NCBI RefSeq assembly: GCF_039536245.1
Contig: NZ_BAAAYN010000006.1
Span: forward strand, 124,001 to 188,000
DNA: 64,000 nucleotides
From: Cryptosporangium minutisporangium
Lineage (GTDB): Bacteria > Actinomycetota > Actinomycetes > Mycobacteriales > Cryptosporangiaceae
Direction of reading: 5' to 3'
Shown: piece by piece, positions 27,942 to 32,669 of the stretch
How the letters are laid out: each line of letters opens with the position of its first letter
Numbering within the stretch: position 1 is the first letter of the stretch
Notes under the pieces: generated by a model
Told to the model about the DNA's origin: nothing
The model's database searches: none
Seen by the model: the letters and a program-made list of their open reading frames with translations, nothing else
Translations under genes and position numbers: made by a program

Positions 27942-29711
27942 TCAGGCGAAGAGGTTCGTCAGCTCCCGCAGGGCGAGGTCGAGGTGCTCGGCGAAGGCGG
28001 CCATCCCGTCGGCCACCGCGCGCGGGGTGCTCAGGTGCACGGCGAGCCGGTCGGGCAGCAGGACGTAACCGACGCCGATGCACTGGCTGCTGGTCGAGCC
28101 GAAGCCGAAGTAGTCGATCGCGGTCGACGGCGCGGAGCTCGTGCTCAGGTAGTCGTCGCGGGAGATCAACCAGCCGGGAGAGCTGAACAGCGCCGGCTCG
28201 GGTCCACCGGCTCGGCGCTGGATCAGCTGGAGCTCCCACAGGTGCTGCTCGGGGGCATCCCCGACCTGGCACTCCTTGGCTCGCCGGACGTGGGCCGCGG
28301 CGGCGGCGAGGAAGGCGGCCTTGCGGGCTGCCTTGTCGGTGGACGAATCGTCCATCGCGGCGACGAACGACAGCACCTCGGGCGTCACCACCCGCATGGC
28401 TTCGGTGCGCCCGCGCCGGTACTGACGAGTGGCGATCGACTCGTACGTGGCGCCGGTCAGGCCCTTCGCCCGCCGGTGGGCCAGCTGATAGGCCATCTGC
28501 ACGAAGGCGTCGGGGGAGACGCCCAGCGATTTGGCGCGGTTCGAGCCGAAGTCGGCGAAGGTCAGGACGTCGGTCGCGGTGGCGGCGGCGTACTCGGCGA
28601 ACGACTCGGCGGCCTCGGCGATCGAGGTCCGCAGCGCGTCGTCGAGGACGAAGTCGAGGCCGGACGCGGTCGGCGTGCCCTGCGAGCGGGCGCCCGCTCG
28701 ACGCGTGTGCGCCGCGGTGTCGGCGCCGAGCACGTAGTCGACGAAGCCGAGGATCGTCGTCCCGTCGAGCTCGCAGTGTTCGACGTTGATACCGGCCCGG
28801 CCGTCGGCGAAGACCACGAACGAGACGGCCTTGTCGAACCAGCGGTTCCCCGAGTCGCCGTGCAGTAGCTGGTCGGCGGCCTCCAGATCGCTGGCCGGCA
28901 CGACGTCTTCGAAGTCGACGCAGAACAGTGCGCTTTCCACGTCGTCCAAAGTGTGGGGGTTGAGTTCTTGCAGTTTTTCGCGGTCGGCGGCCCACGCGGC
29001 GCGCGCCTTGGTGGTGAGGTGCCCGACCGGGTGCGGGTTGCGGGGCGGATCGGCGGCGAGCAGCGAACTCAGGGCGGCGGCGATCTCGTCGGCGGCGTAG
29101 GGCGCGCCGTCGGGTCCGAGGACGTCGAGCTTGGTGAGGTTGCCTCGGTGCAGGACCAGGATGTGCCGGGCGCGGGACGGACCGTCCCATCCCTTGCCGT
29201 ACGGACCACGGACGCTGTCCTGCACCGCGCCGGGGATGCGGGTGGTGGAGAACAGGTACTTGTTCTGCTCCATCGTCTGCGGCACGCCACGCTGGACCGC
29301 CGGGGGCAGCGCCTCGGTGTCGACGTCGTGCTTGAACGCGAGCGCGCCCACGATCAGCGCGGTGGCGCGCTCGACCTGGCTCAGGGGCGCGTCCCGGAAG
29401 AGGAAGAAGAAGTTCGCGTTGAGGGCGATCCGATCGCGGCGGCCCAGGTAGCGGTAGGGCCAGAAGGTGTCGAGCCAGCTGTGGACGCCCTCGGTCGCGT
29501 CGTACTTCTCCAGGATTTCGTGCAGCGGGCGGCCGGGACCGTCGGGGGCGAGGAAGGCGGCGATCTCCGCCTCGGTCCGGGCGTACTCGTCGGCGGTCAG
29601 CAGCGGGGCGCACCACCGCAGGAACCGATCGCAGGTGTCCTCAAGGGTGGGCAGCGGGACGCGCGGCAGCAGGTCCTCGTTGCCGAACGTGCGGGTGGAC
29701 CACTCGGGCAC
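27942..29711 (-). CDS. Carnitine/choline O-acyltransferase family protein
   Basis: A 589-residue member of the carnitine/choline acyltransferase superfamily, close to the usual ~600. Landmarks in order: P-L-P-T-L-E-D-T near residue 19, W-P-Y-R-Y-L-G-R near 84, N-R-W-F-D-K near 289, and catalytic His312 in N-V-E-H-C-E-L-D-G. The CoA/substrate region F-G-F-G-S-T-S-S-Q-C-I-G-V-G-Y lies near the C-terminus. These enzymes move acyl groups between CoA and the hydroxyl of carnitine or choline. There is no targeting signal, so it is cytosolic. Last gene of a tight cassette with a methyltransferase (12 bases away) and a 2OG oxygenase. The acceptor may be a carnitine-like molecule made by these partners. 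Confidence 0.88.
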   Translation of the reverse strand: MPEWSTRTFGNEDLLPRVPLPTLEDTCDRFLRWCAPLLTADEYARTEAEIAAFLAPDGPGRPLHEILEKYDATEGVHSWLDTFWPYRYLGRRDRIALNANFFFLFRDAPLSQVERATALIVGALAFKHDVDTEALPPAVQRGVPQTMEQNKYLFSTTRIPGAVQDSVRGPYGKGWDGPSRARHILVLHRGNLTKLDVLGPDGAPYAADEIAAALSSLLAADPPRNPHPVGHLTTKARAAWAADREKLQELNPHTLDDVESALFCVDFEDVVPASDLEAADQLLHGDSGNRWFDKAVSFVVFADGRAGINVEHCELDGTTILGFVDYVLGADTAAHTRRAGARSQGTPTASGLDFVLDDALRTSIAEAAESFAEYAAATATDVLTFADFGSNRAKSLGVSPDAFVQMAYQLAHRRAKGLTGATYESIATRQYRRGRTEAMRVVTPEVLSFVAAMDDSSTDKAARKAAFLAAAAAHVRRAKECQVGDAPEQHLWELQLIQRRAGGPEPALFSSPGWLISRDDYLSTSSAPSTAIDYFGFGSTSSQCIGVGYVLLPDRLAVHLSTPRAVADGMAAFAEHLDLALRELTNLFA

Positions 29712-29723
29712 GGGCGTCTTCTC

Positions 29724-30557
29724 CTACTGGGATTCGGGGCGCGGGCGGGAGATGTGGAGCTGAGCGTAGAACCAGCCGTCGGCTTCCAAGCCCCGTGCGT
29801 CCAGGCCGAGTTCGGTCAGCCGGTCGAGCACGGACGCCTGCTCGTGCGCGGTGGCGAATCGGCGTTGGCGGAAGGGCTGGTCGATCCGGACGGTCTCGTA
29901 GCCGAGGTCGTCCAGGTGCCCGGCGATCGCGTCGAACGGGAACATCCGGAGGCAGAAGTGGGCCATCCAGGGTCGACGTCCCCCGGCGGCCTCGACGATC
30001 CGGAGCAGCGTCTTCTCGGTCACGTAGCCGATGCAGCCGGTGGAGATCACCAGATCCGTGCCGGCCAGCACCGCGCGTTCGACCTCGGTGGGCTCGTTGG
30101 CCTCCAGGTCGGCGACGAGCGCGTCGTCGAGGAAGCCTGCCGCCACCGCGTAGTCCAGGGCCGGCTGCGAGACGTCCAGGCCGACGAACCGGGCCTGGTC
30201 GCTGCGGTGCCGGTCGCGGACGAAACGCCGGTCGGCCTCGATCAGCTCGTCGCGGGTGCGGTGGCGGCCGACGCCGAGAGCGGCGCCGTAGCGCTCGTAC
30301 AGCTGGGCCATCGTGGTGTCGCACCGCAGCAAGGCCGCGTTGACCCCGTAGGAACAGCCGAGGTCGAGGACCTTGGGCGTGCTGACGCCGTGCACCGCCC
30401 GGTACTCAGCGATCAGGCGTGCGAAGTGGGGGCGCGCGATGCCCGGGATGTTGTATTCGAGCTGCCGGAGCGTCGTGAAGTAGGAGCGGGGGTCGGGGGC
30501 GGTGTAGATGTGATCGAACGAGAACTTGCCGGTGTGGTCGTGGTCTTCCTGCGACAA
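29724..30557 (-). CDS. Class I SAM-dependent methyltransferase of the oxygenase/acyltransferase cassette
   Basis: A 277-residue Rossmann-fold methyltransferase. An N-terminal helical cap (F-D-H-I-Y-T-A-P-D-P-R-S-Y-F) precedes the SAM motif V-L-D-L-G-C-S-Y-G at 63-71, the acidic strand F-V-G-L-D-V-S near 123, and a motif-IV-like D-L-V-I-S-T-G-C-I-G-Y. The cap and the C-Y/G-C-I-G-Y features are unlike rRNA or quinone methyltransferases and fit a small-molecule enzyme. It is 21 bases after the oxygenase gene and 12 before the acyltransferase. N-methylation of an amino acid is the attractive guess; O-methylation is equally open. Confidence 0.85.
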   Translation of the reverse strand: MSQEDHDHTGKFSFDHIYTAPDPRSYFTTLRQLEYNIPGIARPHFARLIAEYRAVHGVSTPKVLDLGCSYGVNAALLRCDTTMAQLYERYGAALGVGRHRTRDELIEADRRFVRDRHRSDQARFVGLDVSQPALDYAVAAGFLDDALVADLEANEPTEVERAVLAGTDLVISTGCIGYVTEKTLLRIVEAAGGRRPWMAHFCLRMFPFDAIAGHLDDLGYETVRIDQPFRQRRFATAHEQASVLDRLTELGLDARGLEADGWFYAQLHISRPRPESQ

Positions 30558-30578
30558 GGCGTGGCCTCCCTTGCGAGG

Positions 30579-31439
30579 TCAGTCGAGGAGTTGATCGACG
30601 CGCACGGCGGTGGCGCGGTGCTCGGGCAGGACACGTCCGAACAGCTGCCGGGTGCGGACGGAGTTGCCGACCACGCCGGGGCGCTCGGAGTAGGAGAAGA
30701 TCGCGGTGTGCCGCTGGGTTTCGCCCCGGACGGTGGTCACTCGGTGGAGCGAGTACCGGCCCCGGAACAGCTGCAGGTCGCCGGGGCGCAAGGTCAGCCG
30801 CCGGATCCGCTGGTCGTCGCGGCCTTCGAGGACGGCGCGCACGTCGGCGAAGTTCTCCGCGCTCGCCGAGCGGATGTCCGGGCAGTACTCGAAGACCCCG
30901 CCGTGTTCGGGGGCCTGGGTGAGCAGGCTGACCGCGAACTCGTTGGTGTCGAAGTGCCAGGGGTGGCCCAAGCCCGGCGCGACCACGTTGAGTACGAGTC
31001 CGGCGAGCGGATCACCCAGCTCGTGGATCTCCGGCAGGCCGAAGCAGGCGGCGAGGAACGTCCGGAACGACCGGTCGCGGTAGAGCCGGTGGATGATCGT
31101 GTCGCGCGGGATCAGGTCGCGGGCGGTGAAGGCGTTCTCGCGTCGCATCGGGATCCGCGCCGGATGGTCCGCAGGCAGGTCGGCGTCGACGTCGATGTTG
31201 TAGACGTTGACGGTCTCCATCTCGTAGTGCGCCAGCGGGGCGATCGCGGCGCCCTCGGCTCGGAGCGTCTCGTGCAGGTCCGGGCGGACGAAACCCGGAA
31301 CCACGCTGCAGCCGTCGGTGGCCAGCTCGGCACGGACCTTCTCGACCACGTCGTGCCAGTGTCCACTCTGTGGTTCGGAGAAGGGATACCGTCCGATGTC
31401 GACCACGTGCTCGATGTCGGCGCCGACCGGTGCGACCAT
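30579..31439 (-). CDS. 2-oxoglutarate/Fe(II) oxygenase of the ArpA/BesD-like family
   Basis: A 286-residue cupin-fold oxygenase. The iron facial triad is His162-x-Asp164 (in W-H-F-D-T-N-E-F) and His232 (in Y-S-L-H-R-V-T), with Arg243 following as the probable 2-oxoglutarate anchor. The stretch L-L-T-Q-A-P-E-H-G-G-V-F-E-Y is typical of the ArpA/HalD/BesD group, which includes free-amino-acid halogenases and hydroxylases. Because the Asp ligand is kept, where halogenases have Gly or Ala, this one is predicted to hydroxylate. The GAGGAGG ribosome site supports the ATG. First gene of the cassette; substrate unknown. Confidence 0.85.
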   Translation of the reverse strand: MVAPVGADIEHVVDIGRYPFSEPQSGHWHDVVEKVRAELATDGCSVVPGFVRPDLHETLRAEGAAIAPLAHYEMETVNVYNIDVDADLPADHPARIPMRRENAFTARDLIPRDTIIHRLYRDRSFRTFLAACFGLPEIHELGDPLAGLVLNVVAPGLGHPWHFDTNEFAVSLLTQAPEHGGVFEYCPDIRSASAENFADVRAVLEGRDDQRIRRLTLRPGDLQLFRGRYSLHRVTTVRGETQRHTAIFSYSERPGVVGNSVRTRQLFGRVLPEHRATAVRVDQLLD

Positions 31440-31570: not shown

Positions 31571-32032
31571 TCAGTGGAGTGGGAACTCCCGTCCGTGCTC
31601 CTCGGCCGGACGAGGTCCGAAGATCCACCGCTCCGACTCGTCGATCCGGACGTCGTTGATGCTGGCTTCCCGGCGTCGCATCAGGCCGTTCTCGTCGAAC
31701 TCCCAGAGCTCGTTGCCGTAGCTGCGCCACCACTGGCCGGACGCGTCGCGGCACTCGTACTGGAACCGCACCGCCATGCGGTTGCCGCGGAAGCCCCAGA
31801 GGTTCTTGCGCAGTGCGTAGTCCAGCTCTCGCTCCCACTTCGCGGTGAGGAACGCGATGATCTCGGTCCGGCCGGTGACGAACGTGTCGCGGTTCCGCCA
31901 GACCGAGTCGACCGTGTAGGCGCCGGCGACCCGCTCCGGGTCGCGGGTGTTCCAGGCGTCCTCGGCGGCCTGCACCTTTTGCTGTGCGGTGGCCAGCTCG
32001 AAAGGGGGAAGCGGGAGTCGTTGCGCGGTCAT
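31571..32032 (-). CDS. DUF1348 (NTF2-like) protein
   Basis: A 153-residue protein with the DUF1348 hallmark run: [13 protein letters not shown] near residue 24, then S-V-W-R-N-R, W-E-R-E-L-D-Y and [11 protein letters not shown]. The family has the NTF2/SnoaL fold and no proven activity. Divergent from a TetR gene, with two identical palindromes between them, so it is most likely the repressor's target and may respond to a xenobiotic. Confidence 0.9.
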
Positions 32033-32052: not shown

Positions 32053-32101
32053 GAGAACGATCGTTCTCCGCCGGGCGTTACGGTAGAGAACGATCGTTCT
32101 C
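32053..32101. promoter_or_regulatory. Two identical 16-bp palindromic operators
   Basis: The perfect palindrome GAGAACGATCGTTCTC occurs twice, at 32053-32068 and 32086-32101, with centres 33 bases apart (about three helical turns). The pair occupies the gap between the DUF1348 and TetR genes, a strong sign of two repressor dimers on the same face of DNA. Confidence 0.8.
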
Positions 32102-32123: not shown

Positions 32124-32669
32124 GTGACGGATCGAGACCAGCTGCTGGACGCGGCCGAGCAGTTGTTCTACGCGCGCGGGATCCAGGCCGTGGGCATGGA
32201 CGCCATCCGGTCCGCGTCCGGCGTCCCGCTCAAGCGCATCTATCAGCTCTACGGCGGCAAGGAGGAGCTCGTCGTCGGGTTCCTGCGGCGCCGGGACCAG
32301 CGCTGGCTGGCCTCGCTCCGGCAGCACGTGGACACGCACTCCGACGCCGACGCGCGGATCCTCGCGGTGTTCGACTGGCTGCACGACTGGTTCGCCACTC
32401 CGGACTTCCGCGGCTGCGCCTGGATCAACGCCTACGGCGAGCTGGGCGCGACGAGCCCCGCGGTCGCCGACGAGGTCCGCGCTCACAAGCAGGCGTTCGC
32501 CGACAGCCTGGCCGGCCTGGTCGCGGACGCGGGTCGCCCGGCAGCCCTGGCCCGGTCCCTCTACCTCCTGGCCGAAGGGGCGATCGTCGCCGCCGCGATC
32601 CACCGGTCCCCGGACGCCGCGGCCGATGCGCGCGCGACGGCCGCCGCGCTACTGGCAACCCGCAACTGA
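32124..32669 (+). CDS. TetR-family regulator
   Basis: A 181-residue repressor of the subgroup with R-D-Q-L-L-D-A-A-E-Q-L-F-Y-A-R-G at the N-terminus, recognition helix S-G-V-P-L-K-R-I-Y-Q-L-Y, and C-terminal G-C-A-W-I-N-A-Y-G-E. It probably binds the double palindrome just upstream and controls itself and the divergent DUF1348 gene. Confidence 0.9.
   Translation: MTDRDQLLDAAEQLFYARGIQAVGMDAIRSASGVPLKRIYQLYGGKEELVVGFLRRRDQRWLASLRQHVDTHSDADARILAVFDWLHDWFATPDFRGCAWINAYGELGATSPAVADEVRAHKQAFADSLAGLVADAGRPAALARSLYLLAEGAIVAAAIHRSPDAAADARATAAALLATRN

Follow-up and report, generated by a model that had tools for sequence, protein, structure and literature searches.

An actinobacterial oxygenase–methyltransferase–acyltransferase cassette and its possible carnitine-like product

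In eukaryotes, carnitine synthesis by the 2-oxoglutarate (2OG) oxygenases TMLD and BBOX, together with the acyltransferases CrAT and CPT2, joins N-methylation, 2OG-dependent hydroxylation and O-acyl transfer. A different group of 2OG enzymes comprises the halogenases BesD, HalA, HalB and HalD and a BesD-like lysine hydroxylase (PDB 7jsd, 9oet). In bacteria, choline/carnitine acyltransferases have no well-known role, and we know of no characterised enzyme of this family from actinobacteria. Here we describe a 64 000-nucleotide stretch of Cryptosporangium minutisporangium DNA (contig NZ_BAAAYN010000006.1, positions 124 001–188 000; hereafter the window), in which enzymes of these kinds, an oxygenase (OX), an S-adenosylmethionine (SAM)-dependent methyltransferase (MT) and a choline/carnitine-type acyltransferase (CAT), are encoded by three closely packed genes:

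30579–31439, minus strand: OX, an Fe(II)/2OG oxygenase with a BesD/HalB-like fold, predicted hydroxylase; 286 amino acids, ATG start, first gene
29724–30557, minus strand: MT, a class I SAM-dependent methyltransferase; 277 amino acids, TTG start, second gene
27942–29711, minus strand: CAT, a choline/carnitine-type O-acyltransferase; 589 amino acids, GTG start, third gene

The genes lie where the original prediction, made from the DNA letters, had placed them, with gaps of 21 nt between OX and MT (30558–30578) and 12 nt between MT and CAT (29712–29723). In Pfam, OX matches PF23169 (HalD; E = 2.3e-15, 57 bits against a cutoff of 26), and CAT matches PF00755 (Carn_acyltransf; E = 4.8e-158, 527.7 bits) over profile positions 1–572 of 574, confirming that it is full-length; it is the sole PF00755 gene of the 9.2-Mb genome. 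MT has only sub-cutoff matches (Methyltransf_25, Methyltransf_12). The locus thus resembles the eukaryotic carnitine system in its proposed joining of three reactions and in its homologous full-length acyltransferase, but its oxygenase is of the BesD/HalB family, its methyltransferase is small and dedicated, its acyltransferase carries Gln in place of the Arg that binds the carnitine carboxylate, and its genes form one operon in which MT is sometimes fused to CAT. What is new is the three-enzyme combination, the change in the acceptor site and the fusion, each enzyme's family being already known. A full-text literature search found no pathway with this trio, as had been supposed, and no description of bacterial acyltransferases of this kind, a weak absence in that most subscription papers were outside its reach. 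We consider it somewhat probable (about 0.55) that the cassette is a three-step unit producing an O-acylated, N-methylated hydroxy-amino-acid, a carnitine-like metabolite other than L-carnitine.

The evidence that the three genes form one system comes from their linkage across genomes. A scan of a genome collection with a CAT-only alignment as the query gave 416 relatives, and among the best 80 of these OX was adjacent to CAT, upstream and on the same strand, at every one of the 80 loci, with the order OX–MT–CAT kept at 70. The loci come from Streptomyces, Actinomadura, Saccharopolyspora, Amycolatopsis, Frankia, Nocardia and others, and six more genomes, from three families, have the three genes in the identical order. 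About one-third of the MT–CAT junctions are 4-nt overlaps, and in four hosts (Streptomyces specialis, two Frankia and Gandjariella; loci L068, L075, L083 and L099) they are fused into a single ORF of about 900 amino acids with its sole stop at the end. In an even draw of 346 genomes from the phylum, in which OX was counted at an identity of at least 60% and MT at at least 54%, cassette-type CAT, OX and MT were each confined to the same three genomes (G000, G024 and G059), two of which are congeneric, making fewer than three independent co-occurrence events. The OX, MT and CAT distance matrices correlate (r = 0.84–0.88, n = 70), a correlation also favoured by shared ancestry of the hosts. Co-occurrence of the three families, whose absence would have told against the original prediction, is far above chance, and the strict linkage and the MT–CAT fusions exclude coincidental neighbours; the trio is conserved as a functional unit across dozens of species of actinobacteria.

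CAT scores closest to CrAT (3.9e-69 for the human enzyme, by phmmer) and CPT2, and lower to choline acetyltransferase (ChAT). The catalytic histidine originally predicted, His312, aligns with His343 of CrAT and is invariant in all 85 cassette enzymes, as are Asp316 and Ser523-Thr524-Ser525. In mouse CrAT numbering, His343, Glu347 (as Asp), Ser552, Thr553, Ser554, Tyr452, Thr465, Phe566 and Lys423 are all kept in 85 of 85, so that both catalytic and quaternary-ammonium-side residues (His343, Ser552, Ser554 and Phe566) are preserved. Arg518 of CrAT binds the carnitine carboxylate and is replaced by Asn in ChAT. This Arg is present in CrAT, in CPT2 and in an unlinked actinobacterial CAT (L031), whereas the cassette enzymes have Gln (Gln489 in CAT) without exception. 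CAT therefore resembles ChAT, a member of the same family, in lacking the carnitine Arg, but differs from it in keeping Tyr452 and Thr465 and in its lower score to ChAT than to CrAT or CPT2. Because the carnitine-carboxylate Arg is Gln in all 85 enzymes, L-carnitine is an unlikely acceptor, and CAT does not look like the L-carnitine-only acyltransferase against which the original prediction had guarded itself. In CrAT, mutation of Met564 to Gly opens the acyl pocket, and the structure 1t7n has Gly at this position; the cassette enzymes have Phe here (85 of 85), which argues for short acyl groups. CrAT has two lysines close to the phosphate of CoA, and one of these, Lys419, is not preserved. 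A search for plasmid relatives of CAT gave no match.

An AlphaFold model of OX (pLDDT 90.5) gave VIA Z scores of 20.6–21.5 against BesD, HalA, HalB and HalD, the highest being that to HalB (7u6j), and 21.3 against the lysine hydroxylase 7jsd, with the next family at 16.5; fold (Z about 21), H-x-W-H motif and PF23169 membership are shared with this group. No match to a TauD-family profile was found in Pfam at E 0.1, placing OX outside the TauD/BBOX-type family of eukaryotic carnitine synthesis, as had been proposed. The predicted H-x-D…H motif is intact: His162-Phe163-Asp164 and His232, as well as Arg243, are invariant across 49 aligned sequences, and none of these has the Gly or Ala that takes the place of Asp in halogenase metal sites. 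With His162, Asp164 and His232 invariant, the metal site is, judged from its residues, of the hydroxylase rather than the halogenase type; the H-x-D form, in place of the H-x-G of the BesD halogenases, is common to OX and 7jsd. In BesD, the lysine carboxylate is held by Arg77, His137 and Trp241, and the lysine ammonium by Asp239, Asp143 and Glu123 (PMC13244439). His137 corresponds to the invariant His159 of OX, within the ungapped H-x-W-H motif. Unlike the BesD group, to which it is 17–20% identical over the aligned part, OX is without Glu123 and Asp143, and so its substrate is not expected to be simply free lysine; an amino-acid-like molecule with a different cationic end seems the better candidate.

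Outside the cassette, OX resembles ArpA-like oxygenases of Enterobacterales plasmids and of onium-type operons in Caballeronia and Pseudomonas (34–48% identity, WH(F/Y)D motif), but the partners of these enzymes are DddP-like M24 proteins, ABC transporters or DUF2817 proteins, not MT or CAT. The literature was searched for ArpA as the name of a 2OG enzyme, with unrelated work as the only result. The nearest relatives of OX outside the cassette (40–48% identity) adjoin a DddP-like M24 protein in five of the seven examined (one in Caballeronia, one in Pseudomonas sp. MPC6 and three in the phylum sample); three of the M24 neighbours, when scored against the dimethylsulfoniopropionate (DMSP) lyase DddP, gave 240–347 bits, under the 600-bit cutoff. 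In Caballeronia, a glycine-betaine-type (ProX/OpuAC) ABC transporter follows in the operon. As these relatives adjoin DddP-like M24 proteins and a betaine transporter, we infer that the oxygenase branch that includes OX handles onium (betaine-type) compounds. In its own right, the conserved oxygenase/M24 pair (L137:8001–13068 in Caballeronia sp. SBC2, L138:8001–10199, L142, L144 and L146), with the betaine transporter in Caballeronia, looks like an undescribed catabolic operon for onium compounds. A further ArpA-like oxygenase, on a Pantoea agglomerans plasmid (L141:726–7717), has urea carboxylase and urea amidolyase-associated proteins as its neighbours; such a combination can also support the use of guanidine, which hints at a guanidine-releasing hydroxylase.

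The MT model (pLDDT 90.5), built on an alignment without plasmid sequences, has the class I SAM fold, and the motif VLDLGCSYGVN is conserved. An unusual N-terminal cap had been proposed for this protein; the model points instead to an ordinary class I fold with three N-terminal helices. A PDB sequence search gave nothing significant, and the model has Z scores of 12–13.6 to many class I enzymes, the best (13.6) being among small-molecule methyltransferases. Since C-methyltransferases, TylM1 (N), JHAMT (carboxyl O) and MmtN (S) are matched with similar scores, the methylated atom is not readable from the model. Relatives of MT alone, on plasmids of Bradyrhizobium, Methylosinus, Rhizobium, Roseibium and S. 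clavuligerus, were considered as a clue to the substrate and set aside, as their settings are mixed and give no clear substrate. Some are accompanied by arylmalonate-decarboxylase-like genes; in Rhizobium and Roseibium (L015:7971–10418 and L017:7995–10444), two genes follow the MT relative, one for an unknown protein of about 255 amino acids and the other for an arylmalonate-decarboxylase-like protein; this is a conserved context of the methyltransferase distinct from the cassette.

In the pathway that we propose, OX, with Fe(II), 2-oxoglutarate and O2, would hydroxylate a small molecule resembling an amino acid or a betaine, hydroxylation being favoured here over other outcomes of 2OG chemistry. 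MT would use SAM to methylate the same molecule, most likely at nitrogen, giving a quaternary ammonium, and CAT would then esterify the new hydroxyl with a short acyl group supplied by CoA or another acyl thioester, at the site that holds carnitine in CrAT. This would yield an O-acyl carnitine-like betaine and not acyl-L-carnitine. Of the separate acylated-betaine route originally predicted, the single system and the non-TauD oxygenase are borne out by the data above, while N-methylation, the betaine product and the order of the steps are here put forward as proposals. We suggest more tentatively, and with rather less than even confidence, that bacteria have an equivalent of the acylcarnitine system assembled from different parts, in which several hundred actinobacterial species would derive a hydroxylated betaine of their own from an amino acid and attach short acyl groups to it, for use as an acyl buffer, a signal or a solute, without described precedent. 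Such a strictly linked, sometimes fused trio would define a new class of metabolite, and would supply new amino-acid/betaine hydroxylases and acyltransferases for biocatalysis.

Several observations weigh against this pathway. The pair OX–CAT stands without an adjacent MT at 10 of the 80 loci, and one of those 10 genomes is without any MT homologue. The other nine, in favour of the pathway, have one elsewhere, 54% identical and standing alone in Amycolatopsis sp. GM8 and about 40% identical in eight Streptomyces, compared with a second MT in only 1 of 10 Streptomyces-type genomes with a complete cassette, a contrast that is not independent of phylogeny, eight of the nine being Streptomyces. 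Genome G021 has CAT and MT, yet no HalD-family gene anywhere, so not every genome with CAT and MT relies on OX for hydroxylation, and the hydroxyl of the MT and CAT substrate may come from another source. In alignment, Asp143 and Glu123 of BesD fall on Thr165 and Leu145 of OX, the assignment of Glu123 being the less certain; the onium inference draws on relatives of 40–50% identity in a catabolic-looking setting; and the MT model is about as similar to N- as to C-, O- and S-methyltransferases. As separate observations, the CAT of the G021 pair (L030:6322–8971) also has Gln at CrAT position 518, with Trp at 564, and in lydicus-group Streptomyces whose cassette misses MT (L131, L133, L135 and L136) the second MT paralogue, with about 40% identity, has a xanthine-dehydrogenase-like operon and a GntR-type regulator as neighbours.

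The mixed fold matches of MT raise the alternative that it methylates O, C or S, with an O-acylated hydroxy-amino-acid derivative or a sulfonium as the outcome rather than a betaine; that the M24 neighbours of OX relatives belong to the family of a DMSP lyase points the same way. The known members of the acyltransferase family act on quaternary-ammonium alcohols, and the quaternary-ammonium-side residues Phe566 and Ser554 are kept in 85 of 85 cassette enzymes, so we regard this alternative as unlikely, though deserving serious thought. The same neighbourhoods of OX relatives, with LysR regulators, DddP-like M24 proteins, the betaine ABC transporter and MttB-type methyltransferases, look catabolic, and the acyltransferase family is reversible; CAT might then move an acyl group from an acylated onium compound onto CoA, with OX oxidising or demethylating the remainder. 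However, a transporter, a regulator and an M24 enzyme are all missing from the cassette, and a route that removes methyl groups would have little use for a methyltransferase, making degradation or recycling decidedly improbable.

We give little credence to CAT being an ordinary L-carnitine acyltransferase with two chance neighbours, or to the cassette being a route to L-carnitine itself: full-length PF00755 coverage and closeness to CrAT and CPT2 would fit such an enzyme, but linkage and fusion exclude chance, and the Arg lost from the cassette enzymes is retained in the unlinked L031. Equally doubtful is a tailoring role, in which the trio would modify a natural product, larger or bound to a carrier, that is encoded elsewhere in the genome. 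Such pathways are abundant in Actinobacteria, and the fold relatives of OX include SnoK, SnoN and PolD, but the flanks of the cassette vary between genera, the recurrent flanking families tested (SpoIIE, FtsX, HlyD, glutamine synthetase and an esterase) are unrelated and not typical of biosynthetic clusters, and those members of the HalD family whose function is known use free amino acids as substrates (entries with free Lys/Orn). The three-step route to an acylated, carnitine-like metabolite remains our preferred reading.

Around the cassette in the window, an upstream DUF1348 gene, a TetR gene and a downstream protein kinase were considered as further members and rejected, as they are not retained with it elsewhere; kinase matches in other cassette loci have varying places and 35–47% identity. 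Two perfect 16-bp palindromes, GAGAACGATCGTTCTC, at 32053–32068 and 32086–32101 (0.02 expected in the window), lie between the divergent DUF1348/SnoaL-like gene (31571–32032, minus strand) and the TetR gene (32124–32669, plus strand), and are likely to be TetR operators, separate from the cassette.

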